From: Methanococcoides seepicolus
GTDB taxonomy: Archaea; Halobacteriota; Methanosarcinia; Methanosarcinales; Methanosarcinaceae
Length of the DNA stretch: 34,301 bases
Direction: 5' to 3'
Assembly (NCBI RefSeq): GCF_023684405.1
Contig: NZ_JAGSOI010000025.1
Span: forward strand, 1 to 34,301
In this document: piece after piece, positions 4,227 to 27,482 of the stretch
How the letters are laid out: each line of letters starts with the position of its first letter
Position numbering within the stretch: position 1 is the first letter of the stretch
Notes under the pieces: generated by a model
What the model was told of the DNA's origin: nothing
Databases searched by the model: none
What the model saw: only the letters and a program-made list of their open reading frames with translations
Position numbers and translations under genes: made by a program

Positions 4227-4637
4227 ATGGATTGTCTGTTCTGCAATATAATAAAGGGAGAGATCCCATCCCATAAGATCTATGAAGACGAGGAGACCTA
4301 TGCTTTCCTTGACATAAACCCCTGTTCCAGAGGGCATACCGTAGTTATCCCTAAAAAGCACTACGACAGCTTTACCGACATGCCAACGGAAGATGCCGGT
4401 TCACTTTTCGCTACCGTGAAAATGCTAACAGGGATGATAGAGGATGCCATGTCAGCGGACGGCTCGAACGTCGGTCTCAATAACAAAGCTGCTGCCGGTC
4501 AGTTAGTGCCACATGTGCATGTCCACATCATCCCGAGAATGGATGGAGATAATGGCGGTTCAATGCATTCGATAGTAGCTGTCAGCGGTGCAGGGAACGA
4601 TCTGGAAGAGTTGGCTGAGAGTTTGAGGGTTGATTGA
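4227..4637 (+). CDS. HIT-family nucleotide hydrolase/transferase (intact copy)
   Basis: This 136-residue histidine-triad protein has CLFCNIIKGEIP at the N-terminus, SRGHTVVIPKKH in the middle, and the active-site triad as HVHVHIIPR near residue 97-105. HIT proteins bind nucleotides and hydrolyse or transfer nucleoside phosphoramidates or dinucleoside polyphosphates. ATG 4227 is chosen over the in-frame ATG at 4212 because GGAG at 4216-4219 lies 7 bases before it, and because the family starts right at the CxxC segment. The last 310 bp (4328-4637, to the exact end of the stop codon) are repeated at 6138-6447. This copy keeps the 5' third that the other copy lacks, so it is the functional one. 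Confidence 0.93.
   Translation: MDCLFCNIIKGEIPSHKIYEDEETYAFLDINPCSRGHTVVIPKKHYDSFTDMPTEDAGSLFATVKMLTGMIEDAMSADGSNVGLNNKAAAGQLVPHVHVHIIPRMDGDNGGSMHSIVAVSGAGNDLEELAESLRVD
4328..4637 (+). repeat. 310-bp direct repeat, left copy (3' part of HIT gene)
   Basis: This segment aligns without gaps to 6138-6447 at an offset of 1,810 bases. I count 11 mismatches in 310 positions, all but two in the first 130 bases. The identity ends exactly at the TGA stop codon on the right. Only the four-base stretch CAGA and onward is shared on the left. With its partner it frames the Fic gene. Confidence 0.95.
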
Positions 4638-6137: not shown

Positions 6138-6447
6138 CAGAGGGCATACCGTAGTTGCCCCAAAAAAGCACTACGACAGCTTTACCGACATGCCAACGGA
6201 AGATGCAGGTTCCCTTTTCACCACCGTGAAAATGCTAACAGGTATGTTAGAGGATGCCATGTCAGCGGACGGCTCGAACGTTGGTCTCAATAACAAAGCT
6301 GCTGCCGGTCAGTTAGTGCCACATGTGCATGTCCACATCATCCCGAGAATGGATGGAGACAATGGCGGTTCAATGCATTCGATAGTAGCTGTCAGCGGTG
6401 CAGGGAACGATCTGGAAGAGTTGGCTGAGAGTTTGAGGGTTGATTGA
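6138..6447 (+). pseudogene. 5'-truncated second copy of the HIT gene (right direct repeat)
   Basis: The frame matches residues 35-136 of the intact HIT protein from RGHTVV to the C-terminus, including HVHVHIIPR, but lacks the N-terminal third with the CxxC and first strands. The upstream in-frame codons (from TTG 6103) are unrelated, and there is no plausible ribosome binding site, so it is not a functional gene. Of 11 differences from the left copy most are synonymous; Ile to Ala, Ala to Thr and Ile to Leu are the amino-acid changes. That pattern suggests the copy diverged while still part of a selected gene, for example in a related strain, before it was joined here. Confidence 0.9.
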
Positions 6448-7011: not shown

Positions 7012-9084
7012 ATGGGACTTAAAAATATTCATTTAAAGGGTTTTTACGATTCTGACGCAGACAATTTGTTGCTTGATTTTTATATTCCAGTTCTTGAAGA
7101 ATCCATATTTTATAAAAGGATAGCCGGATATTTTTCATCTAATTCACTTGCAATTTCTGCAAAAGGCATCTCCAAATTCATTGATAATGGAGGGAAAATG
7201 CATCTAATAGCTAACGTAGTGCTCTCAGAAAATGACCAAAACACCATCAAGAAAGCTATCCACGAAAAAGAGATGCAAATATTGGATGAATTTGAAACAA
7301 TGGATGATGCTCTAAAAAGAGGGCACTTAGGGCTTCTAGCATGGATGATCAAAAATGAGATATTAGAAATAAAAATCGCAGCAGTTAAAAATGGATTGGA
7401 ACATAAAAAGAAAGGGATTTTTAAAGACATAGAAGGAAATGAGATTTCATTTACGGGATCCGACAATGAAACTATTGGCGGTTGGCTCCATAACCATGAA
7501 GACTTTCATGTATTTTGTAGTTGGTTGGAAGGGGATAAAGAAAGACACTTAGACCCCGACATAAAAAATTTTGAGGAATTATGGAATGATCAGTTAAATA
7601 GTGTCCAAGTCTTTGAAATTTCAGATGCTTTTAAAAAAGGCCTTATTCAAAATGCACCAGCTAACGAAGAAGATTTTAAAACATTATCAAATGAAGTTAC
7701 AAAGATGCTGGTTGAAAAATCGAAAGTTGGATACTTAAAGCATAATGTTGCTGAAAAACCATCAAAGAATAATTTAGATGATTTTCTTAGAGATTACCAA
7801 ATTGAAGCCATTGGGAAATGGGCTGAAAATGGAAATCAAGGCATATTCAAGATGGCTACTGGCACCGGTAAAACATTTACTGCTTTTGGTGCAATAAATC
7901 ATTACTTGAAAGAAGTTGGCTCTGGGTTAATTATCATAGTAGCCCCGACTCAATTACTAGTCACGCAGTGGTCTAATCAATTAAAAGGACTTGGATATTT
8001 AAATGTTGTAGAAGTAATGAAGAACAGTTCAGTTTGGAAGCAAGATATGAATGGTTCTCTTCTAAAAATAGAACTTGGAAAAGCTAATGAAGCTATAGCA
8101 GTTGCAACATATGATTCATTCTCATCAACAACATTCGTGAATCTCATCAACAAATATAAACTGAATACTTTCTTGATCTGCGATGAAATGCACAATTCCT
8201 GGGCTCCGAAATATAAAAAGGGGCTTCTTCCTTCATATCAATCTCGTCTCGGCTTGAGTGCCACTCCTGAAAGATATATGGATGAAATGGGTACAAAAGA
8301 AATGCAAGAGTATTTTGGAGGAATTGTTTATGAGTTCACTATTGCACAAGCAATACCTGAATTTCTTGTGGAATATGAATATCATGCAGAGACAGTTGAA
8401 CTAACTGATGAAGAGAGAGAAGAATATCATGATCTAACGCACTCCATTGCTAAAAGGATTGCTAGTAACAAAGGAGATATTGATGATATAACACTTAGCA
8501 TAATATTGAAACGTTCAAAGCTTGTAAGCAATTCTAAGTCTAAATGGGAAGCTTTTAACAATATTCTTGACAGCATCTCCTCTGTTAAAAGGACTTTAAT
8601 ATACTGTTCGAATAAACAACTTCCACATATCTTGAAGATACTCCATTCAAGAAAAATAAGTGCTTGTAAGATCACATACAAAGAAAGTCCAAAAGAAAGA
8701 AAAAGGATTATCGAAGATTTTATTTCGGACAAATATGATGCGATCGTTGCTATGAAGATCTTGGATGAAGGTATCGACCTTCCAAAAATTGAACAAGCTA
8801 TAATAATGTCAAGTAGTGGAAATCCCATTGAGTATGTCCAAAGAAGAGGACGAATTTTAAGGAAATGTGATGGAAAAGATTTTGCCAGTATTTATGATAT
8901 ATTAATTTTCCCATGGAAAGATATACCTGAGAATATAAGTAAATCTGAACTATCCATAATAAGAAAGGAAATGAAAAGGGTTGAAGAGTTCGTGAGCACT
9001 TCTACTAATCCACTAGAAGTGATGAATGACATTATAGATTACAAATATTTGCTTTATGACGGTGATCCATATGAAGAAGTTTGA
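7012..9084 (+). CDS. PLD-like nuclease fused to SF2 (DEAD/DEAH-type) helicase
   Basis: This 690-residue protein has two parts. Residues about 1-180 resemble a PLD-family nuclease half: an HxK at His131-Lys133, the GSDN block at 149-152 and a conserved NHE at 161-163. Residues about 255-640 form a superfamily II helicase: the YQ-type motif Q in RDYQIEAI (260-267), Walker A ATGTGKT (282-288), Walker B DEMH (391-394), SATP (416-419), and motif VI QRRGRILR in the C-terminal RecA domain. The likely job is ATP-driven DNA translocation coupled to cutting. It heads a four-gene operon whose downstream genes overlap or nearly touch. Fusions of this kind occur in several phage-defence systems. It is not HsdR, as the nuclease motif and domain order differ. 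Confidence 0.88.
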   Translation: MGLKNIHLKGFYDSDADNLLLDFYIPVLEESIFYKRIAGYFSSNSLAISAKGISKFIDNGGKMHLIANVVLSENDQNTIKKAIHEKEMQILDEFETMDDALKRGHLGLLAWMIKNEILEIKIAAVKNGLEHKKKGIFKDIEGNEISFTGSDNETIGGWLHNHEDFHVFCSWLEGDKERHLDPDIKNFEELWNDQLNSVQVFEISDAFKKGLIQNAPANEEDFKTLSNEVTKMLVEKSKVGYLKHNVAEKPSKNNLDDFLRDYQIEAIGKWAENGNQGIFKMATGTGKTFTAFGAINHYLKEVGSGLIIIVAPTQLLVTQWSNQLKGLGYLNVVEVMKNSSVWKQDMNGSLLKIELGKANEAIAVATYDSFSSTTFVNLINKYKLNTFLICDEMHNSWAPKYKKGLLPSYQSRLGLSATPERYMDEMGTKEMQEYFGGIVYEFTIAQAIPEFLVEYEYHAETVELTDEEREEYHDLTHSIAKRIASNKGDIDDITLSIILKRSKLVSNSKSKWEAFNNILDSISSVKRTLIYCSNKQLPHILKILHSRKISACKITYKESPKERKRIIEDFISDKYDAIVAMKILDEGIDLPKIEQAIIMSSSGNPIEYVQRRGRILRKCDGKDFASIYDILIFPWKDIPENISKSELSIIRKEMKRVEEFVSTSTNPLEVMNDIIDYKYLLYDGDPYEEV

Positions 9085-9262
9085 AATAAACCAACTAATT
9101 CAAAAAAAAGTAAATGATTCTGACGAATCTGACATAATGAAAAATTTCATTCTTGAGATATTAGATCTAGAACGTAGGAATGTAGAATATCCACAGAACA
9201 AGTACGTTAAAGATTTTACAACCATGGCTGGAGATTATAGCAATAAAGAGCAGAGAGGCTAA
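9071..9262 (+). CDS. Small charged hypothetical protein in helicase/DndD-like operon
   Basis: This 63-residue acidic/basic, probably helical protein has no family I recognise. ATG 9071 is preferred over the in-frame ATG at 9056 because GGTGAT at 9061-9066 ends four bases before it; both starts lie inside the end of the helicase gene, so translation is coupled. The stop is two bases before the ATG of the ATPase gene. Its fixed place between the helicase and the ATPase suggests a small subunit or adaptor. No membrane segment, cysteine motif or DNA-binding motif is visible. Confidence 0.7.
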   Translation: MKKFEINQLIQKKVNDSDESDIMKNFILEILDLERRNVEYPQNKYVKDFTTMAGDYSNKEQRG

Positions 9263-9264
9263 CT

Positions 9265-11265
9265 ATGTGGATATCAGAAATCAAAATCACTAACTTTAGA
9301 CCATTCTATGGTGAACAGATTTTTTCATTTAAAGATGATTCACAAGAAAAATTCACAATAATAGAAGCTAAATCTGATACTGGCAAAACAAGTTTACTTT
9401 CTGCAATCTCTTGGTGTCTTTATGGAGACGATAAAAAGAGCGAAACTGACCAGCATAAAGGAAATATTCACCCATTCAATCTTGATCGAAAGGATGAAAT
9501 GGCAGAGGATGAAGACGATTACCTCGAAGTGGAATTGACTTTGAATGCTGATGGTAGTACATTACCTAAATATGTAATCACAAGAAATGTCAGTTGCACT
9601 AAGAACAAAGGTCGTATGGCTAACAGAAGCTATCCTTTCGTAACAGTCGAAGAATGGGAAAACAACGAATCAAGAACTATTGATAATCAAAGCCTTTGCC
9701 AAAAAACGATAAATTCCATATTGCCCGAGAACATCCATATGTTTTTCTTGTTCGAAGGTGAAAAACTGGAAAAACATTTTTCTTTTGAAAATCAAGAAAA
9801 CATCAAGTTTGCTATAGAAAAAATATCACAAATAGAACAAGTAAAATCTGCGCTCAAACATCTAGAAATTACACGCAATAAAGTATACAGTGATAAAAAG
9901 GAAGGTAGAGGTAACAAGCAACTTGAAAGTAATCTCTCTGAAATTGATAATTTAAATGACTTTATTGAGAATTTGACCGAAAAAATTCAGCTATACAACG
10001 AGCAGATCAATGAAGCAGAAAAAGAAGTTGATGTAATCGATGGAAAATTGAAGGAGCAAAACATTGACAAAGTAACTGAATGGTCTAAAGCGAGGAAAAT
10101 TTTAGAACAAAATAATCAAAGTTTAGAAAAAAGAATAAATGACCTTCAAAAAAAATCTAAACTTTGTATGCTCAAAAATGCACCGCTTGCAATGTGTTCA
10201 AATTCCTTGAAATCTCTTATTAATGTCATAGAAGAATCAGAACAAAACAATCAGCTACCTCCAAAAATAAAGAATATTTATGTTAAAGAATTACTTGAGA
10301 AGAAAATTTGTATATGTGGAAGAAGCTTACTTCCTGATGATGAGGAATCAAAAAAAGCGATTTCCGAATTAGAAAAGATACTTGGACAAAATGATCTAAG
10401 TGATCTCTCAGAAAAATTGATTGAAGGAAGATATAATATAAGAGACATTCTCAGAAAATTACCAAACACTTTTGTTGAAAAGCGTGATGAGATTGTTTCT
10501 GATATTGAAAGGATTCAACAGCAGATATCTAGTAATCTTTCCGAAATTAATGATATTAACAAGCAGTGCGAAGGTATTGATGAAAGCGAAGTTCTTGAAC
10601 TTAATAATAAGAGACAAGAATTGAAAGTTAATATTCGTAGCCAAACCGAAAGTATAGGTAGACTTAACGCCACCCTTAATTCAAAGAGAGCAAGATCTAC
10701 ATCCATTAAAAGAGAAAACGAAACGTTGGCGAAAGAACTAGATAACTATGCTAAAATAAAACAAGTTTCTGATTTCATGGATCGCGCTCTAATCATGCTA
10801 AATGATATCAATAATGAAATTCTTACCGAAGTACGTAGTACTGTGGAGCAAAGGACCTTTGAATCATTCCTCAATCTACATTGGGACAAGGCAAATTATG
10901 CTGGCTTCAAGATAGGATCTAGGTACAATATGAGTTTGGTAGATTATCAAAATGTTAACAGGATAACAAATCTTGCTAGTGGGACTAAACAGGTACTTTT
11001 ACTCTCATTTATAGCTTCATTGGCAGAAGTTTCTGGTTTCAAGTTCCCAATTTGCATCGATACTCCTTTAGCAAACACCGATAATGAGCAAAGGATAAAC
11101 ATTGCCAAGAATTTACCTAATTATTTGAAAGGAAACCAAGTAATACTTCTCGTAAAGGATCAAGAGTACACACCTGATTTTCGAACTACGATTTCAGAAA
11201 GAGTTAGCCAAGAACTGCGTATGGTGAAACGAGAAGGCAAAACTGAGGTGACAACATGGGATTAA
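9265..11265 (+). CDS. DndD-like SMC/Rad50-type ATPase
   Basis: This 666-residue protein is a head-and-coil ATPase. The N-terminal FRPFYGEQIFSF strand precedes a P-loop at 35-42, A-K-S-D-T-G-K-T, whose first Gly is replaced by Ala. MFFLFEGEKLEKHF near 170 is typical of DndD and related ATPases. Coiled-coil segments follow (about 205-305 and 400-510), separated by a hook region with KICICGRSL near residue 349, also a DndD-family mark. The C-terminal half has an altered signature (LASGTKQ) and Walker B PICIDTPLANTD, with Thr where classic ABC ATPases have Glu, as in DndD. No dndA, dndB, dndC or dndE genes lie nearby, so phosphorothioation is not expected. It probably works with the PLD-helicase in foreign DNA sensing or degradation. 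Confidence 0.85.
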   Translation: MWISEIKITNFRPFYGEQIFSFKDDSQEKFTIIEAKSDTGKTSLLSAISWCLYGDDKKSETDQHKGNIHPFNLDRKDEMAEDEDDYLEVELTLNADGSTLPKYVITRNVSCTKNKGRMANRSYPFVTVEEWENNESRTIDNQSLCQKTINSILPENIHMFFLFEGEKLEKHFSFENQENIKFAIEKISQIEQVKSALKHLEITRNKVYSDKKEGRGNKQLESNLSEIDNLNDFIENLTEKIQLYNEQINEAEKEVDVIDGKLKEQNIDKVTEWSKARKILEQNNQSLEKRINDLQKKSKLCMLKNAPLAMCSNSLKSLINVIEESEQNNQLPPKIKNIYVKELLEKKICICGRSLLPDDEESKKAISELEKILGQNDLSDLSEKLIEGRYNIRDILRKLPNTFVEKRDEIVSDIERIQQQISSNLSEINDINKQCEGIDESEVLELNNKRQELKVNIRSQTESIGRLNATLNSKRARSTSIKRENETLAKELDNYAKIKQVSDFMDRALIMLNDINNEILTEVRSTVEQRTFESFLNLHWDKANYAGFKIGSRYNMSLVDYQNVNRITNLASGTKQVLLLSFIASLAEVSGFKFPICIDTPLANTDNEQRINIAKNLPNYLKGNQVILLVKDQEYTPDFRTTISERVSQELRMVKREGKTEVTTWD

Positions 11266-11687
11266 AAGAAAGTTTTGGAAGAAATATTAATATTAACCAT
11301 GAGATTCGTGAAAGGTATAATCATATCCAATCAGGATTCCTTTTCAAAGGTGAAGATAACAAAGGTGTAGATTACAAATATCTGTTCATGATGTGCCTTG
11401 GTTTGGCTTATACCCAAAAATGTTCCCCGAAAACGGTTAAAAATCCTGTAGGACTTTTAAATATAAGCAGTTTTTCTGAAGATGATCTATGGACAATAGC
11501 TTCAATAGCAGTTGAAACCACTGGAGACATACGAATAATAGGGAAAGCTGCAGAGATGAGAAAAATTGCTACAGAGTATGCTCATGCAGGTCTCGATGTT
11601 CTTGAAGATCTTATCGCAGAATATGGCTCTGGGGAAAATTTGGAACTGGTGTTAGAAAAGATTGGTAAAGATTCACTTAGTATGTGA
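11256..11687 (+). CDS. 143-aa hypothetical protein closing the helicase/DndD-like operon
   Basis: The start ATG overlaps the end of the ATPase gene by 10 bases and has a good ribosome binding site, GAGGTGA, so it is translated with it. The protein is mostly helical, with a hydrophobic helix YLFMMCLGLAYTQK near residue 43-56 and a conserved-looking MRKIATEYAHAGLDVLEDLI near the C-terminus. I do not recognise the family. By size and place it is in the position of DndE beside DndD, but I see no sequence likeness to DndE. It may be a DNA-binding or regulatory subunit of the same system. Confidence 0.85.
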   Translation: MGLKESFGRNININHEIRERYNHIQSGFLFKGEDNKGVDYKYLFMMCLGLAYTQKCSPKTVKNPVGLLNISSFSEDDLWTIASIAVETTGDIRIIGKAAEMRKIATEYAHAGLDVLEDLIAEYGSGENLELVLEKIGKDSLSM

Positions 11688-11870
11688 TAAAAAATCTTTA
11701 AAGATTGTTTTGGAGAAAACATACTAATGCTTAACTCAACAAAAGTATGATCACTTGTGGAAATCTAAATCGTTAATTCATAAGCAACAATTCAAAGTTA
11801 GAGTAAAGATGAAATCTAAAAAACTTATTAGGTTGCCTTAGAAGCATTGGAAAATGACAAATTGATTGAA

Positions 11871-12305
11871 ATGAGCTATATAAGAGATGGACGTGCCCCC
11901 ATTCCAAAATTGGAAAGCACTTCTAAGGTTATGAGTGCTAACAAAGGAAAAGATACAAAACCCGAGCTATTGTTACGCAAAGCATTGAGGGAAATGGGAC
12001 TTTCTGGATATCGCTTACATTGGAAAAGAGCAGTTGGACATCCAGATATAGCCTATCCTGGTAGAAAGATAGCCATATTCGTCAACGGTTGCTACTGGCA
12101 CAGATGTCCTTACTGCGACCTCCCCCTCCCAAAGTCCAACATAGAGTTCTGGGCAAACAAGTTCAAGAAGAATATTGAAAGGGATGCAGAGAAAAAACGT
12201 AAACTTGAAGACGATGGGTGGACTGTTCTGGTGTTCTGGGAATGTCAGATAAAAGAAAATGTGCAGAATTGTGCTAAAAAAGTAAAAGAACTGTGGGATA
12301 AATAA
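11871..12305 (+). CDS. vsr: Very short patch repair endonuclease (Vsr)
   Basis: This 144-residue protein has the full Vsr signature: TKPELLLRKALRE, then GHPDIAYPGRKIAIFVNGCYW in two blocks, HRCPYC (zinc site), PLPKSNIEFWANKF, N-x-RD, and GWTVLVFWECQI. Asp in the PDI block and the His/Cys residues are the known catalytic and zinc ligands. Vsr nicks at T:G mismatches that arise when 5-methylcytosine deaminates, starting repair back to C:G. ATG 11871 is chosen; a TTG at 11847 in the same frame is possible, and neither has a clear ribosome binding site. It faces the C5 methyltransferase gene tail to tail, 37 bases apart, as expected for a partner of that enzyme. Confidence 0.95.
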   Translation: MSYIRDGRAPIPKLESTSKVMSANKGKDTKPELLLRKALREMGLSGYRLHWKRAVGHPDIAYPGRKIAIFVNGCYWHRCPYCDLPLPKSNIEFWANKFKKNIERDAEKKRKLEDDGWTVLVFWECQIKENVQNCAKKVKELWDK

Positions 12306-12342
12306 ACGTAGTTCCCACAATCAATAATTCAAAAATTCGCCT

Positions 12343-13974
12343 TTACTTCAACTGCTTCACAAAATAATCACATGCATACAAGCCTGCTACTATCCTAAGC
12401 GGTACTTGTTCCCGATTGATCGCTATGATTACCTCGGAATTATCCACCATGGCAGCTTCATCAGGGAAATGTACATCGACGATATCTCGCATCTTCTGCA
12501 AAGCCATCTCTGGAGTAATATCCTCAGTTTGACAGCTGGAAACATAGGCCCTTTGCAAGTCCATGGAAGTCGTATCGATTTCATCGAAAGTTCTTTTCAC
12601 ATCATTGATAAGATCATCGAATTTTGGGATCTCATTTATCAATCCGGTAAGATTACATTCTTCAGGGCTGCACATCGTGGCATTCTTCCCACTACCCTGA
12701 TGCAATACACAAGACCATTTTATGTTCCCACTCTTGAAATCAGAGGTCTTGTTCGTAAGTTCAACACGGAACCCCTTTATCTTAATGTAAGGGATATGTA
12801 TCGCAAATTTAGCATCTAACCTCTTATCTTTCTGGTCCTTTAGTTCTATTTTAGTACCCGTAAGATCGAACGAAGATTTAGTCGCTGGTAAAGGTATGAA
12901 CTCCATAGGAGGTTCAATGTGCTCTTTTTCAAGTATGGCTTTAGCCAGAGCAGATGAAAGTTTAGCACATACCGCATTGCCCACTAAACGATATTTAGAA
13001 GATTCATTGCCTGCTTCGAACTGATATGTGATCGGGAATGACATCATTGAAGCTATTTCCCTTATCGTGGGCAGTCTATATCCAATGTGCTTCCCGTTCT
13101 TGTCTATGGCTTCGAATATCATTGATTCACGTGTAGATGCCGACCTAGTGGCCATAACCGTCCTACTTGGCCTATCAAGGTTCTCAGGGAATGACATCTT
13201 GCCCATAAAACCATGGTCCTCTTTCATCCTTTTCGCTTTCTTCCATTCGAAATTTGCTACACGAGTATCATAAAAATGATCGGTCAGTGAATTGGAAGCT
13301 ATAGAAAAACCATAGTTTGTATCAGTGATCGTACCCCCAGTATCACCTTCAAGGGGGTTCCCCAAAGAGTGCATGACCTCTTTCATTGTCAGCCACTCGT
13401 CCTTATCTTTGCAAGTAGGAACTGGTGCAGGAAATTCGCCACACATGAACCTTTTTCTTGTCTGAGGTGCACCATAATCTGCTGCATTAAAGACGTTGCT
13501 GACCTCCATTTTCAGGTCAGGTCCTTCACCGGGAAGGCCTAGTTCTTTCCAAGTATATTTATCTTTAATGTACTTGCCTGCATTGGGAACATTTTCCAAT
13601 ATCCAATATTTTAATACGCCGCCCTTTTTGTACTTCTTCCAAGCGACTATACGAAGATACGATTCGATCAGCTTTATTCCCAATGTCTTGTCTGCCTTTC
13701 CAGCATTATTGGAACCAGAAAAAGAAACACACGGAGGACTTCCTATAATTACATCAACGTCTGGGATGTGCTCATCTATCTTTTCAGGAGTGTCCAGTTC
13801 TAAAATATCCATCTTCACAGTATTACAGTCAGGATGGTTCAAATGATGAGTATCGATCGCGGGTTGCCAGTGGTCAAGAGCAAACACAATATCCAAATCG
13901 TTCTGACGGAAACCTTCTGAGAATCCACCGCCTCCACAGAAGAAATCAGCGACCTTTAATCTCGTTTTTGTCAT
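12343..13974 (-). CDS. DNA (cytosine-5-)-methyltransferase with long C-terminal extension
   Basis: This 543-residue enzyme has C5 methyltransferase motifs in order: I VADFFCGGGGFSEGF, IV GSPPCVSFSG with the catalytic Cys, VI WILENVPN, VIII QTRKRFMCGEF, IX RPSRTVMATRSAS and X YRLVGNAVCAKLSSALA. It methylates cytosine in DNA, probably protecting the sites cut by the adjacent Sau3AI-type enzyme. Motif X ends near residue 340; about 200 further residues form an extension with no motif I recognise. ATG 13974 is preferred over an upstream ATG at 14025: it leaves motif I eight residues from the start as is usual, and a TATA box centred 29 bases upstream predicts a leaderless transcript. Confidence 0.93.
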   Translation of the reverse strand: MTKTRLKVADFFCGGGGFSEGFRQNDLDIVFALDHWQPAIDTHHLNHPDCNTVKMDILELDTPEKIDEHIPDVDVIIGSPPCVSFSGSNNAGKADKTLGIKLIESYLRIVAWKKYKKGGVLKYWILENVPNAGKYIKDKYTWKELGLPGEGPDLKMEVSNVFNAADYGAPQTRKRFMCGEFPAPVPTCKDKDEWLTMKEVMHSLGNPLEGDTGGTITDTNYGFSIASNSLTDHFYDTRVANFEWKKAKRMKEDHGFMGKMSFPENLDRPSRTVMATRSASTRESMIFEAIDKNGKHIGYRLPTIREIASMMSFPITYQFEAGNESSKYRLVGNAVCAKLSSALAKAILEKEHIEPPMEFIPLPATKSSFDLTGTKIELKDQKDKRLDAKFAIHIPYIKIKGFRVELTNKTSDFKSGNIKWSCVLHQGSGKNATMCSPEECNLTGLINEIPKFDDLINDVKRTFDEIDTTSMDLQRAYVSSCQTEDITPEMALQKMRDIVDVHFPDEAAMVDNSEVIIAINREQVPLRIVAGLYACDYFVKQLK

Positions 13975-13996
13975 AGCAAGTAGAAAGACGATTATT

Positions 13997-14010
13997 CTTA
14001 ATATATCTTT
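13997..14010 (-). promoter_or_regulatory. TATA box of the methyltransferase gene
   Basis: Read on the minus strand, AAAGATATATTAAG is centred about 29 bases before ATG 13974. Archaeal transcription starts about 25-27 bases after the TATA centre, so the mRNA would begin at or next to the ATG. This supports both a leaderless start and the choice of ATG 13974. Confidence 0.55.
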
Positions 14011-14084
14011 TGATCGAAAGAACAAAAACCCTACAAAAATAATTTAGTTCCAACATGCTTAGTAATTATAGATAGAAACTAATT

Positions 14085-15479
14085 TTAATTGTAATTCGCA
14101 ACTTGCTCTTTTAGATATTTTGCATTTAGCCAAAATGATTTTTTAATTAACTGTTGCCCATCTGGAGTTTCACAAGTATCCTCTTTATTCCTAGCATGTG
14201 GCCTTACATGACACACTTCACTATCAGAGATCCTAGGAAGATCAGCAGCACTACCTGAAATAATCCTACTAACGGTTTCTTTCCAAACTCTTTCTACCTC
14301 TTTCAGATCATCATAAGGAATCGTCCAGAACATACCCTTTTTAAACCGTAGTATGCCAAATTCATCTTCTTGATAAACAACAAAGAAGAACTTTTTGTCA
14401 ATAGTATTCAATAAAGTTGAATTATCCCATTTTTCTTCCACAATCTCTTTGTATTTGAAATATGGAAATGACATCGACTCTTTAGGAGTTGCATTCTGAT
14501 TTAGTCTAATTATTTTGACATCAACGTTCCCTTTTTCAAATTCCTCGATCTTGCTCTTTTTCAGACCTAGCATCCTTGCAGCCAAACTTGCATAATAGCC
14601 TTTGGCATCATTGTTCAGATCATCACCGACCAATTCATGGATCTCATCAACTGTTTGCCCAGAATATATTGATAATCTATCCAAAACTATCTCTTCAAAG
14701 GACCTAGCACCTTTTAATTCGCTTACGTCCTTAATGAAAGGCTCTACATCCAAAGTATTCAGAATTCCCTTAGGAGGTATTTCATCTGCGATCGTTGAAG
14801 ATATTATGTAGTTAACATATTTCTGTTTGAGACAAAATGCACGCTGCTTAGCCCTAATTGTAGAATGAGGCTGATCCCTCAAACTGCTTGCACTGGTCAT
14901 TCCTTTGGTACAGGCACCCAAGTAAAGTGAATCGCCTTCTGAAAGTTCATGAGCTCGACCATCTCTTATCTTTGCAACTATTCGTTCCCAATCCCGTCTT
15001 ATGATCTCAAGGTCAACATTATAATATTTCCACAATGTCACAAATTTAATAAGATAATCAAGACGATCTTTATCAGACTCAAAAAGATAGAATATCAAAA
15101 GAAGAAGCGAATTCTTATGTAAAAATGAACTGTTTATCCAGTCCTCCTTAACAACTTCCATATAGTTAATGATATTAAGGACAATTCTTTCTTTTGAAAC
15201 CAGATGTCCATTTTTAAGTTTTTTGAGAGGAGTTACTTTAAGTTCAACACCTGCTTCTTTGAAATCAGGGTCTTTATCGGAATTTAATTCATAAAGAAAG
15301 TAGTTTTTTTCTAAGTACTGACCCAAATGGCCTTTATTGCCACCATATCCAGTGGACCCTTCACTTATGACCCATGAACATGCATCCCTAAATTTACTAC
15401 CCTCTAACTTTTTAGCATAAACATAGATATCTTCAGGATCTTGGGAATCATAGGGAAGTTCGTCAACTAGAAAGCTCAT
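14085..15479 (-). CDS. Sau3AI/MutH-type type II restriction endonuclease
   Basis: This 464-residue protein is close to Sau3AI (489 residues) in size. The N-terminal domain has the MutH-like catalytic pattern D-x6-E-x-K as Asp72, Glu79, Lys81 in DPDFKEAGVELKV, the same spacing as MutH Asp70-Glu77-Lys79. SYGGNKG-like GSTGYGGNKGHLGQYLEK precedes it, as in Sau3AI. The C-terminal half (about 230-460) should be the second, non-catalytic DNA-binding domain. Sau3AI and relatives cut before G in GATC when its C is unmethylated. With the adjacent C5 methyltransferase and Vsr this makes a complete restriction-modification-repair unit. A TATA-like ATTTATATAA about 30 bases upstream suggests its own promoter with little or no leader. 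Confidence 0.9.
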   Translation of the reverse strand: MSFLVDELPYDSQDPEDIYVYAKKLEGSKFRDACSWVISEGSTGYGGNKGHLGQYLEKNYFLYELNSDKDPDFKEAGVELKVTPLKKLKNGHLVSKERIVLNIINYMEVVKEDWINSSFLHKNSLLLLIFYLFESDKDRLDYLIKFVTLWKYYNVDLEIIRRDWERIVAKIRDGRAHELSEGDSLYLGACTKGMTSASSLRDQPHSTIRAKQRAFCLKQKYVNYIISSTIADEIPPKGILNTLDVEPFIKDVSELKGARSFEEIVLDRLSIYSGQTVDEIHELVGDDLNNDAKGYYASLAARMLGLKKSKIEEFEKGNVDVKIIRLNQNATPKESMSFPYFKYKEIVEEKWDNSTLLNTIDKKFFFVVYQEDEFGILRFKKGMFWTIPYDDLKEVERVWKETVSRIISGSAADLPRISDSEVCHVRPHARNKEDTCETPDGQQLIKKSFWLNAKYLKEQVANYN

Positions 15480-15594
15480 GCATAAAATAATGAGAAATGT
15501 TATATAAATAAATATGGAGGAAGTTAGGAGCTAGAATAATGAATGAAAAAGAAGAAATTAAATATTGAAAGCAAGTTAATCTTAAATAATGTAA

Positions 15595-15608
15595 TAGTCC
15601 CGCCCGGA
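15595..15608. repeat. 14-bp copy of the tRNA-Gln 3' end (possible attachment site)
   Basis: TAGTCCCGCCCGGA here is identical to 27410-27423, which is the discriminator, acceptor strand and part of the T stem of tRNA-Gln. It lies exactly where the open frame of a truncated dockerin gene begins, at the right border of the defence island. Elements that integrate into tRNA genes leave such a copy of the tRNA 3' end at their far side. No integrase gene is visible, so this remains a candidate. Confidence 0.5.
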
Positions 15609-21799: not shown

Positions 21800-22015
21800 A
21801 TGAAAAGAAAGATAACAATTACAGTGGATTCAAATATCCTTACAAAATTTGATGAGATACGGGGATTGATCCCACGCTCAACATATTTGAACCAAATGAT
21901 GAACGATAAAATTGAGACCGTAACTGGCATGTTCGTGCAAGATCATAAAACCAGCTACAGTCAAGCAGCATCCAACAGCCACTTATGTAATAAATGGAGG
22001 GACGCAGATGTTTAA
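21800..22015 (+). CDS. Ribbon-helix-helix (CopG/Arc-like) regulator
   Basis: This 71-residue protein opens with the basic beta strand MKRKITITVDSNIL followed by two predicted helices (KFDEIRG and PRSTYLNQMMNDKIE). That is the order of the ribbon-helix-helix fold of plasmid copy-number and antitoxin-type repressors. The C-terminal 25 residues look disordered. GGAGGT sits 3 bases before ATG with a palindromic operator next to it. As first gene of a module with small ORFs and a PrimPol-helicase it probably controls replication gene expression of an integrated plasmid or virus. Confidence 0.8.
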   Translation: MKRKITITVDSNILTKFDEIRGLIPRSTYLNQMMNDKIETVTGMFVQDHKTSYSQAASNSHLCNKWRDADV

Positions 22016-22106
22016 CATGCTTTATTCTGATTTAAATTTTTGTAATAATTGCCAAATACTCCACATATTGACAATTGCTCCTGGAAGGAAGGTGGCCAAT
22101 GACTGA
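22008..22106 (+). CDS. 32-aa peptide with a CNNC motif
   Basis: ATG 22008 overlaps the end of the regulator gene and has GGAGG at 21997-22001, 6 bases before it. The 32-codon frame contains a CxxC (FCNNC) and ends in TGA at 22106, overlapping the next start by 8 bases. I do not recognise it. A good ribosome binding site and the chain of overlapping frames support translation, but it may be only a coupling device. Confidence 0.45.
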   Translation: MFNMLYSDLNFCNNCQILHILTIAPGRKVAND

Positions 22107-22254
22107 CACTGAAGTTCTTCAGAAGCATCCACTCATTCAAGAGTTTGCATCTGTACATAATGATCCTGAACTTTATCAGATCATTGAGAAGACCAATCCC
22201 ACACTCAAGATGCTTGTAGACGTGGCCAGTGAGATCATGGGGGACTATCAATGA
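22099..22254 (+). CDS. 51-aa acidic hypothetical protein in the replication module
   Basis: ATG 22099 follows AAGGTGG at about 22089-22095. The 51-residue product (MTDTEVLQKHPLIQEFAS and onward) is helical and acidic, with no recognised family. Its TGA at 22252-22254 overlaps the ATG of the next frame as ATGA. The protein-like composition and exact coupling on both sides make it a likely real gene, too short to be found by usual length cut-offs. Confidence 0.65.
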   Translation: MTDTEVLQKHPLIQEFASVHNDPELYQIIEKTNPTLKMLVDVASEIMGDYQ

Positions 22255-22436
22255 GTAAAACTGAGCTCGTACGACTATCTCGTTTTCTGTGGGATCATCT
22301 TGATAGTGATGAAAAAGAGATGCTGGCTAAATATGATCCATTTGTGTACAAAATTCTAAGTGGTGACGTGATTTTTACGCTCAATGTCTGGGATTATAGA
22401 ATTGCATTCATACATGTTATGAATATTTTGGAGTGA
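22251..22436 (+). CDS. 61-aa hypothetical protein in the replication module
   Basis: The start overlaps the upstream stop as ATGA, and the stop region leads into the primase gene with GGAG at 22430-22433 serving that next gene. The 61-residue product has KTELVRLSRFLWDHL and aromatic-rich helices, no cysteine motif and no membrane segment. Its family is not recognised. Place and coupling suggest an accessory to the PrimPol-helicase. Confidence 0.65.
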   Translation: MSKTELVRLSRFLWDHLDSDEKEMLAKYDPFVYKILSGDVIFTLNVWDYRIAFIHVMNILE

Positions 22437-22441
22437 AAACA

Positions 22442-24823
22442 GTGACACAAGCTCCACGGATCAAAGTAAACGAAGAGGGTATCCCTCAAGAGCTCAAAAA
22501 GGTTCCACAATGGGTACTGTATAAAATCACAAAGGTAAAGGGCAGGGACACAAAAAAACCATATCGTGCAACCTGTAAGAAATCAAATCCTAACAGACAG
22601 GGCGACGAGTTCGCAAGTTCTACTGATCCGGATACCTGGTCTACATATGAGGAAGTTATCAAAGACTATAAGACCGGACGGTTTGCAGGCATCGGATTTG
22701 TACTTGCAAATGGTTACATAGGCATGGACTGGGACCACATCCATGACATAGAATCAGATGAATGGGATTCCAAAGCACTCCAAGAAATACATAGTATGGG
22801 AAGTTATGGAGAGTTGTCTCAGAGTGGCACAGGTGTCCATGTTATAGGAAGGGGTAATGTCCCGGGGGAGAAAGGAATCAACAAACCTGATGGGGAGATG
22901 TATGACCAAGGCCGTTTTTTTGTCGTTACTGGTCAACATCTAAAAGAGACATCTACAGAAATCAATGATGTCTCAAAAGAAGCTATACAGGCAATGTATG
23001 ACAGGCTCAATCCATCGAAGAACCATACTTCATATGTGAACATCCCTAGGACAAAGACAGAACTTACTGATGAAAAGGTCCTTGCATTATGTATGAGTGC
23101 CACAAATGCTGACAAGTTCGAAGCACTCTGGAATGGAGATCTTACAGATTACCGTGATGATCAAAGTGCTGCAGACCTGGCACTATGCAATATATTTGCA
23201 TTTTACACCTAGGACTGTGTTCAGATTGACCGGATATTCAGACAATCTGCTTTATATCGTGAGAAATGGGACGCGAAAAGGGGTCAGAATACCTATGGAG
23301 AAATTACAATCAAAACGGCTATTGAAGGCGTGACATACATATATACGCCATCAAAGGAAGAGAATGGGGAAGATGGTCAAGCGGAGGGTAATGGTCACAC
23401 AACCAGCCAACAAGATTTAGTGGACTCATACCCAGAACATATCCTGAAATTGGCTCATATAATTCTTGAAAATGGGGATCCATTGTCTTTCTATGTGGAG
23501 ACATGGAGCAAGCAACATGTGGGGGATGAGATTATAGGTAAGTCCTGTGCGTGTGCTGTTGCTGCAACTTTTCTTACAAACACAAGGGGGTTGCATGTAA
23601 AACCAAGCGGAGACAGTGGAAAAGGCAAATCTGACGGCACAGAGAATTACTTGAAGCTGGTTCCAGATCACAAAAAGATGGTGGGTTCTCTCTCAGGCAA
23701 AGCGGCATTCTATCACCCGAACATGAAAAAGGGGACAATCATCTATTCTGATGACGTAAAGTTCGATGAGAACATAACTGCCACCATCAAACAATCGACC
23801 AGCGATTACCAGAAGAAAACCGCACACAACACCGTGGTAAAACAGAAATTCAAATCACTCGACATCCCTCCACGCGTAAGTTGGTGGCTCACTTCAGTGG
23901 ATGGTTTTGACGACGAACAGATGTCCAACCGCTTCCTTGGAATGGATGTGGATGCAAGCAATGTCCAGGACAAGCTCGTGTTCAACAAACAGGTGGAAAA
24001 TGAATTGTATGGAAGCACTCAAGGAGTGCTGGATACTGATATACTGCTATGCAGAGCAATGTACGATATCCTAGGACTGGATGAATACGAGATAAGAGTC
24101 CCATTCGCTGAATGCATCGAGTGGTCCAACAAAGAGAACCGCAGGAACTTCCCCATGTTCCTGGATATCGTGAAGAGTGTCACGTTCTACAAAATCAAGC
24201 AGCGTGAGAAGTTCCACGGGGCATATTTAGCCACGATGGAGGACTTTTACAAGGCAAAAAATATCTATCAAGGACTGGCTGAAACCAATGCAACCAACCT
24301 CACGGAAAAGGAATTGAAGGTGGTGAAATACATGGATAGCAAAAAAGGCACAGAGGTGGAACGGAAGGATATTGGAAAACTGCTAAATGTCTCTCTCACA
24401 TCTGTGAAGAACCTCATGCATGGCCAATACAACAATGGTGGACTATTGAACAAGGTACCTGGGTTGTATTTTGAAGAGGCGATAGTCAAGGTAGGTGAAA
24501 CAAAATCCACAAAAAAATATCTTTACTCATTTGACGTTGGCCTAGGTTTTGATGCTTATACTGATGTTGTGGGTATTCGTGAAGATGAAGTGGAAGATGC
24601 AATTAGGAAATTCAAAGAGGAATTCGAGGATATTCAGAAAGAGAAAGAAAGAATAATTGCTAATGATATCGATGCAATCACTATAACCCCGCTGCAACCT
24701 CACTATAACCTCACTACAACAGAAGATAATAATACAAAAACAAGTACAATAGATAGAATAATAAATAATATTCTAAAAAATAAAGAAAATGATACTAGTG
24801 TGTGTGGAGAAAGTGCACTTTGA
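22442..24823 (+). CDS. PrimPol-helicase replication protein with one in-frame TAG
   Basis: The frame from GTG 22442 to TGA 24823 encodes 793 residues if one TAG at codon 257 is read through. Residues about 1-200 form an archaeo-eukaryotic primase domain: QWVLYK, GMDWDHIHD with metal-binding Asp residues, and SGTGVHVIGRG with the S-x-H type motif. Family-like sequence continues across the TAG (LALCNIFAFYT then DCVQIDRIFRQSALYREKWD) with no frame change. The C-terminal half is a P-loop helicase with Walker A GDSGKGKS and Walker B IIYSDDVKFDE, then a winged-helix-like end. The likely role is to prime and unwind DNA for a plasmid or virus-like element. GTG 22442 is preferred to GTG 22433 because GGAG lies 8 bases before it. 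A TAG in this order can mean pyrrolysine. Confidence 0.85.
23210..23212 (+). other. In-frame amber codon, candidate pyrrolysine or nonsense site
   Basis: TAG replaces one codon between FAFYT and DCVQIDR in the PrimPol-helicase. The frame continues without a shift for another 536 codons of family-like protein. One base change from CAG (Gln) would give TAG. Confidence 0.85.
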
Positions 24824-25136: not shown

Positions 25137-25250
25137 TCAAGCTTGAACTATAAAATGAGGTTCACCTTCAGCTGATCCTTTTCTTTTGGTTAAAAGTCGT
25201 AAATAAGATCTCCCTTCTTCATCCAAGTCTTCATATTTTTTCTCAATTGA
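25137..25250 (-). pseudogene. C-terminal coding fragment joined to a truncated YgjP gene
   Basis: On the minus strand a frame from about 25250 to TGA at 25137-25139 reads IEKKYEDLDEEGRSYLRLL and continues as a charged, protein-like C-terminus ending in EPHFIVQA. It begins where the YgjP frame ends and is one base out of frame with it. I do not recognise the parent protein. It appears to be the tail of another gene brought next to the YgjP fragment by a deletion. Confidence 0.4.
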
Positions 25251-25788
25251 AGCGCAATTGGTTCTTCTTGGAACAGCTACCCCATTTCTCCTTCAAATCC
25301 TGAATCTTAATTAAAGAAGGTTCATCATCAAAGTATTTTAGATACCTTTTCACCCTTTCATCAATTACCTGTTCGGCTTTATGGTGATAATATTCAAGAA
25401 ATAATGGTTGCAGATAGCTTTTATATTCAAATTCAGGAACATCGACAGGAATAGTGGCATGAAATTTCCCCTTCAAGAACTTCAATGCAGGTTCATCACC
25501 CTTATTGACCTTGAGCCTGTATCTTCTACCCCTTAACAGGTATTTTTCACCACTGATGAACTCTTTATTGGATTCATATTCAATTACTTCATCCATTCTG
25601 TCAATATTGTTGATAATCCACTTTGCCCTTCTGAAAAGATTGGTTGTTAGAGCATCTTCTGTCATGCCCTGTGGAGCCTTTACAGTCATCCTATTATTGT
25701 GACCGATTGTCAACTCAATGGTCTTCTTCCGTCCTGTAAAAATTAAATCGTAGGGTACAGTTGTGTTTCCAATCTGTATAGAATGCAT
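25243..25788 (-). pseudogene. YgjP-type (DUF45/SprT-like) metallopeptidase, lacking its active site
   Basis: The 181-residue frame matches the N-terminal part of YgjP-like proteins: a beta-rich start, KWIINNIDRM, YRLKV, and the block EKWGSCSKKNQLRFN. In the family this block is followed by about 60 residues with the zinc motif HExxH, which is absent here because a TGA follows directly. The protein would have no catalytic site, so the gene is probably dead. YgjP-type genes often sit inside type I restriction loci, and here the gene overlaps the end of an HsdR remnant by one base (TAATG), so both came from one such locus. Confidence 0.75.
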
Positions 25789-26018
25789 TATAGGATATTC
25801 CTGACAAGATGAATGATATTTTTACTTTCTTTGTCAGCAGTATTTACATCATACCCTAATTTATACAATGACCGCTTGACCTTCTGTAGCATTTTTTTCT
25901 GCTGGTCTTGTTTGTGCTTCCAGTCAATTACCGCAAGTTCATCCAGTGTTTCGAAAATAGATTTTGATACTGCATGACCTGTGCTTTTTATAATTTTAAA
26001 AGTTGACCATGCCTTGAT
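25788..26018 (-). pseudogene. C-terminal remnant of type I restriction subunit HsdR
   Basis: On the minus strand 76 codons are open from 26018 to TAA at 25788-25790. They include SIFETLDELAVIDWKHKQDQ and KVKRSLYKLGYD, the usual end of HsdR, the ATP-dependent translocase and nuclease of type I restriction enzymes. Everything upstream (nuclease, helicase domains) is missing, cut just before a stop at 26019. The stop codon overlaps the start of the YgjP-type gene, as in intact type I loci. No hsdM or hsdS remains in the window. Confidence 0.7.
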
Positions 26019-26818: not shown

Positions 26819-26869
26819 AACTCATTATTATGAGCATAATATGAAAGCTTAATTATTTCATTTGACTAA

Positions 26870-27061
26870 GAAATCTATCATCGACGTAATTTTGTTGAAA
26901 CAATGTTTTCAGTCCTGAAAGGAAAATATGTGGAGAGTCTCTGTGCAAGGAAATATGGAAATTAAGTAAAAGAAGTGAAACTAAAAGTATTGATACACAA
27001 TCTTGACAGGTATGTCAAAATTGTGTGCTTAGTTTGGAGGAGGATTTCTACAGAGCCGTAA
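26870..27061 (+). pseudogene. C-terminal remnant of a transposase, with terminal inverted repeat
   Basis: The frame reads RRNFVETMFSVLKGKY, then ESLCARKYGN, a TAA at 26963 in place of a Gln-like codon, then [18 protein letters not shown] and RRISTEP. From memory this is the C-terminus of a DDE transposase common in Methanosarcina insertion sequences. The terminal repeat GGATTTCTACAGAGCC at 27042-27057 overlaps the end of the frame and equals the ends of the MITE at 16702-16833. The 5' part of the element is missing. One nonsense codon and a lost start show it is dead. Confidence 0.75.
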
Positions 27062-27328: not shown

Positions 27329-27409
27329 TGATATGCATTCATAGCAAAAGTTCGATTTCAAAAAAAGTAAAAATGACCTGTCAAAATAGGACTATCTAAA
27401 GAAATTTAG

Positions 27410-27482
27410 TAGTCCCGCCCGGATTCGAACCGGGGTCTCAAGCTCCAAAGGCTTGAAAGATTGACCGCTACTCAACGGGACT
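27410..27482 (-). tRNA. tRNA-Gln (anticodon TTG)
   Basis: Read on the minus strand the gene starts AGTCCCG and ends CGGGACT plus discriminator A, a perfect 7-bp acceptor stem. The anticodon loop is CTTTGGA on a CAAGC/GCTTG stem, giving anticodon TTG. The T arm is CCCGG TTCGAAT CCGGG. No intron and no encoded CCA. Its last 14 bases recur at 15595-15608. Confidence 0.95.

Follow-up and report, generated by a model that had tools for sequence, protein, structure and literature searches.

The window studied here is the whole of a 34,301-nucleotide contig (C77) from the draft genome of Methanococcoides seepicolus, which amounts to 2.80 Mb in 158 contigs. On its forward strand lies a reading frame (22433..24823, +) whose product is a PrimPol-helicase of the NrS-1/SaPI5 type. 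The frame comprises 796 codons when an in-frame TAG (23210..23212, +) is read through, and closes with TGA at 24821-24823. Two start codons are available, GTG 22433, giving the longest frame, and GTG 22442; the TAG is codon 260 of 796 counted from the former and codon 257 of 793 counted from the latter.

Three small ORFs precede the gene. The first (21800..22015, +) is ribbon-helix-helix-like and has matches in L004/L092, L011 and L045, a similar ORF adjoining sibling primases; a search of PHROGs returned no family match for it. The second (22072..22254, +) is kept directly upstream of related primases, with 75% identity in L007/L227 and 42% in L044 and L048. Since these two recur beside related primases, they evidently belong to a replication module. 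For the third, a 61-aa ORF overlapping the primase start (22251..22436, +), no relatives were found.

All these genes lie in a probable integrative element. The 3´ end of a tRNA-Gln(TTG) gene (27409..27482, -), the probable integration target, forms the proximal copy of a 17-nt direct repeat of family D2 (27407..27423), and a second copy (15592..15608), 11.8 kb away, is the probable distal att site. The bracketed 11.8-kb insert contains a C25-peptidase-like gene, small ORFs, the primase and a truncated YgjP gene (25243-25788). No integrase gene was recognised in these 11.8 kb, but related primases in G001, another genome of the genus, and on contigs C137 and C129 of the window's own genome have ORFs nearby that resemble tyrosine recombinases on visual inspection. 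When the locus was compared with possible empty sites, the close relatives G009, G002, G003 and G006 matched only from tRNA-Gln rightwards, their left flanks being unmatched by the window. The lack of a recognised integrase and the truncation of a neighbouring gene make it doubtful that the element is still alive, and it may be a remnant.

Several further features of the window were recorded. The YgjP-like metallopeptidase region (25243-26018, -) has a TGA before the HExxH motif and no continuation in any frame, and it adjoins an ORF resembling the C-terminus of a type I restriction subunit. The roughly 200-bp segment at 26861-27060, probably a repeat of IS or MITE-like type, recurs many times across genomes of the genus. 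Next to the tRNA-Gln element is a defence island of low GC content (7012-15479, 35%), coding for a helicase, an SMC/AAA-like ATPase, Vsr, a cytosine methyltransferase and a MutH/Sau3AI-like protein. Farther to the left, part of a HIT-family hydrolase is duplicated (4328-4627 and 6138-6437, 96% over 300 nt) on either side of a Fic-domain gene, an arrangement that looks like an insertion scar or the ends of another element.

Protein family on both sides of the TAG

The TAG at 23210-23212 is the sole stop inside the primase frame and no other frame break was detected, so that the frame from 22442 to 24823, described in the original prediction as unbroken but for this TAG, is borne out. The same family also continues across the TAG without a shift, as had been proposed. 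The phrog_1829 DNA primase profile matches residues 14-259 (E 1e-57) and then the part past the TAG (E 3e-16), while positions 19-64 of the Pfam NrS-1 helix-bundle domain PF22763 start exactly at the first residue past it. Three homologs of the same archaeal family (L043, L044 and L045), none with a stop, jointly cover residues 12-790 at 34-37% identity. The codon-usage score is 0.185 before the TAG and 0.186 after it. One frame spanning the TAG is not a matter of chance. Moreover, conserved residues are retained on either side (49 of 54 before, 47 of 50 after) at the rate seen in intact homologs, and there is hence no sign of decay behind the TAG, although a recent change would leave none anyway.

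All three modules of an NrS-1-like protein were identified. The AEP/PrimPol motifs MDWDH, SQSGTGVH and RFFVVTG (22724..22933, +) are conserved columns in an alignment of 17 sequences and supply the catalytic signatures of the DxD, S/T-x-H and R/K..G types (D99, D101, H136 and T166-G167). After the catalytic core comes a helix-bundle domain like that of NrS-1 (23159..23332, +; PF22763, E 7e-17), supported by alignment and by an AlphaFold model with helices 244-258, 262-269 and 288-299. The AAA+ helicase (23609..23755, +) is marked by Walker A GDSGKGKS (23609-23632) and Walker B GTIIYSDD (23732-23755); Foldseek matches this C-terminal half to MCM-type AAA+ modules, the model there being of low confidence.

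The model has a mean pLDDT of 72.7, rising above 90 around the TAG site, and Foldseek aligns it to NrS-1 N300 with E 2.6e-17. The best solved relatives are 7ola (E 3e-31), the SaPI5 primase-helicase, which is listed as 'DNA primase', and NrS-1 PrimPol (6a9w, 6k9a and others, E 1e-28). In the model, helices 244-258 and 262-269 of the helix-bundle domain are joined by a turn of three residues, and residue 260 lies in this turn. The TAG thus breaks a domain, and its earlier placement in a linker does not hold.

Use of TAG in the host genome

Genes for tRNA-Pyl (pylT, anticodon CTA), pylS, pylB, pylC and pylD stand in a row on contig C1, each Pyl protein scoring over its NCBIfam cut-off. The pyl genes on which the original prediction depended are thus present in this host. 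The genome also has three MtmB genes with one in-frame TAG each, a gene for the release factor aRF1, and a RubisCO nearly identical to structure 5mac, which is that of M. burtonii (PMC5399129).

Usage of TAG was measured on a 952-kb sample of the genome, in 851 ORFs of at least 80 codons. TGA ends 456 of them, TAA 374 and TAG only 21. A coding-like extension of at least 40 codons follows 9 of the 21 TAG ORFs and 60 of the 830 TAA/TGA ORFs (Fisher p 1.2e-5). In the TAA/TGA class, the extended ORFs mostly have a new start codon right after the stop, often with a ribosome-binding site. Ten TAA/TGA junctions, picked mainly for a weak new-start signal, were read through and scanned for domains, and a domain crossed none of the ten. 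A TAG is found inside one domain or family in MttB, MtbB, MtmB, a protein of the Lyase_1 family, HypF, a CitG-like protein and a histidine kinase.

The strongest case is the lyase, a member of the fumarase/aspartase family (L094:3-1034, corresponding to C137:40003-41034 of the window's genome, G000, -; likewise L117 and L120-L125). Codon 249 of this fragment is TAG in seven of the nine genomes of the genus (G000, G001, G004, G005, G007, G008 and G010); the other two, which are the two closest relatives, have CAG (G003) and TGG (G009). With the TAG read as pyrrolysine, the sequence at this site would be GL-Pyl-ELNMGGTAVGTGLN. Over the 95 codons that follow, protein identity between G000 and the other TAG-bearing species is 79-84%, and the changes fall mostly on third positions (for example 16, 6 and 47 at positions 1, 2 and 3). 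Purifying selection downstream of a shared TAG implies that this codon is read through. A TAG conserved in a gene unrelated to methylamines is a sign of sense reading, as judged from sequence, and a stronger result than the primase itself.

The remaining genes outside methylamine metabolism each have one in-frame TAG: HypF (L069:13923-16196, -), the CitG-like gene (L099:9807-10787, +) and the histidine kinase (L023:312-2258, +). At the TAG position of CitG, relatives have Leu, Trp, His, Met or Val, the same pattern as in the primase. Since the TAGs of HypF and CitG are specific to this genome, they speak for use of the codon and not for its conservation.

Some ORFs still end in TAG, among them pylB and a sibling primase on C137, and TAG may therefore not be sense every time. 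The sibling primase-helicase (L092:6543-8732, -) has 155 codons between its TAG and the next other stop; because its host uses TAG as sense, the protein may be extended at its C-terminus. Taken together, the comparative sequence data show TAG in use as a sense codon in this lineage, and the primase TAG is accordingly expected to be read through.

Probable origin and decoding of the primase TAG

The original prediction called for an alignment of homologs at the TAG codon. The position turned out to be variable and TAG occurs there in none of 21 aligned homologs: Gln is found in 11 (CAG or CAA), Arg in 4, Lys in 2, and Asn, Asp, Thr and Gly in one each, so that Q, R or K accounts for 17 of 21. 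The nearest homolog (L007, same genus, 62%) has CAG. The simplest origin of the primase TAG would consequently be one C-to-T change (CAG to TAG), the site being tolerant and mostly polar in character. A search of viral and genome contigs for TAG-bearing relatives of the primase yielded only distant ones, at most 39% identical; G129 contains a fragment, a short and uninformative remnant, whose TAG precedes the window's TAG position by 15 residues. For a dN/dS comparison behind the TAG, the nearest homologs cover one half each (L007 the N-terminal, 62%; L006 the C-terminal, 50%), neither with a TAG, so that such a comparison would not separate a recent mutation from a tolerated codon. As no homolog shares the TAG, selection on it cannot be shown, and as pyrrolysine is not conserved here, no special role for this residue is indicated.

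Most probably, the primase TAG is read as a pyrrolysine codon and one 796-residue PrimPol-helicase is made. The UAG would be decoded by tRNA-Pyl (CUA), charged by PylS with pyrrolysine from PylBCD, and the ribosome would continue to TGA 24821-24823. Residue 260 of the resulting protein would then be pyrrolysine, in a turn on the surface of the helix-bundle domain. The TAG is probably recent and would have been kept because the lineage uses TAG as a codon genome-wide, not for any function of pyrrolysine. With pyl genes in the host and TAG read as sense in unrelated genes, suppression at the primase TAG is to be expected; this part of the original prediction stands, apart from the linker in which suppression was thought to occur. 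Expression of the gene, the efficiency with which its UAG is decoded and the identity of residue 260 as pyrrolysine are inferred.

The likeliest alternative is that the element is dying and has newly acquired an inactivating nonsense mutation, ribosomes stopping at the TAG and the gene being a pseudogene. This would agree with a TAG that is unique to the window copy and one step from CAG, with the lack of a recognised integrase between the tRNA-Gln repeats and with a neighbouring YgjP truncated before its active-site motif. However, where several unrelated genes of the host use TAG as sense, such a change does not inactivate a gene by default, the frame is otherwise unbroken, and conserved residues after the TAG are kept as in intact homologs. 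We therefore consider inactivation unlikely. Pyrrolysine and fresh nonsense mutation had been posed as alternatives; they are not exclusive, since a fresh CAG-to-TAG change would in this host be a pyrrolysine codon.

An extension of pyrrolysine decoding is that replication of the element is coupled to the pyrrolysine supply of the host, production of the full-length PrimPol-helicase requiring an active pyl system, as when the cells grow on methylamines. If true, only Pyl-decoding hosts could harbour the element, and its copy control would be tied to methylamine metabolism, but we regard such coupling as distinctly unlikely.

It is very improbable that the TAG programmes a dual output, a stand-alone primase made by stopping and a primase-helicase made by read-through, in a ratio set by pyrrolysine supply. 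Partial read-through is conceivable, aRF1 being present, and there is a precedent in Acetohalobium, where the meaning of UAG depends on growth substrate (PMC8211752). A stop at the TAG, however, would cut through the helix-bundle domain and leave the product without R276, K278 and Y288. According to the alignment, these three residues, all encoded after the TAG, are counterparts of R249, K251 and Y261 of NrS-1, and mutation of any of the latter weakens priming (PMC8718748). A useful product ending at residue 259 is thus unlikely, and with it the role that the original prediction had allowed for a primase-only fragment; nor is the TAG conserved in relatives. Least credible of all is a sequencing or assembly error in which CAG was read as TAG, as might be imagined for a single position in a draft of 158 contigs with CAG in the nearest homolog, for in-frame TAGs recur in several unrelated genes and contigs with no matching excess of in-frame TAA or TGA.

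Comparison with known systems

The window primase shares with the NrS-1 polymerase (6a9w/6jop/6k9a) and the SaPI5 primase-helicase (7ola) the order of AEP PrimPol, helix-bundle domain and C-terminal AAA+ helicase, and it is alike in its motifs and N-terminal fold. It differs in that their genes have no such stop codon, and the structure match gives about 28-30% identity across the first 300 residues at the N-terminus.

Kivenson and colleagues (Science, 2025) reportedly described an archaeal 'Pyl code' that gives every TAG codon a sense meaning, pyrrolysine, and is said to include Methanococcoides burtonii. Here too, TAG is rare as a terminator and occurs inside several unrelated genes, and the genus is probably the same. 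In contrast, our case is a replication gene of a mobile element, and some TAG-ended ORFs of this genome look like true ends.

In the pyl-decoding Methanosarcinaceae, the UAG genes mtmB, mtbB and mttB likewise carry UAG within a conserved frame, and their genomes encode pylTSBCD. Unlike the UAG in these genes, that of the primase is neither at a catalytic position nor conserved. Among the genes with in-frame UAG reported from Methanosarcina are transposases, a TetR regulator and a CobN homolog (PMC1242214, PMC3639795); a replicative PrimPol-helicase is not named in the portions of these two papers considered here.

Automatic annotation divides a gene of this sort into two, a truncated primase and an orphan helicase, and labels it broken. 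Mobile elements residing in Pyl-decoding hosts can gain TAG as an ordinary codon, and their spread would then be restricted to hosts that share this code. Such UAGs in mobile-element proteins are already known from the Methanosarcina transposases, and to these the primase-helicase adds a further case.
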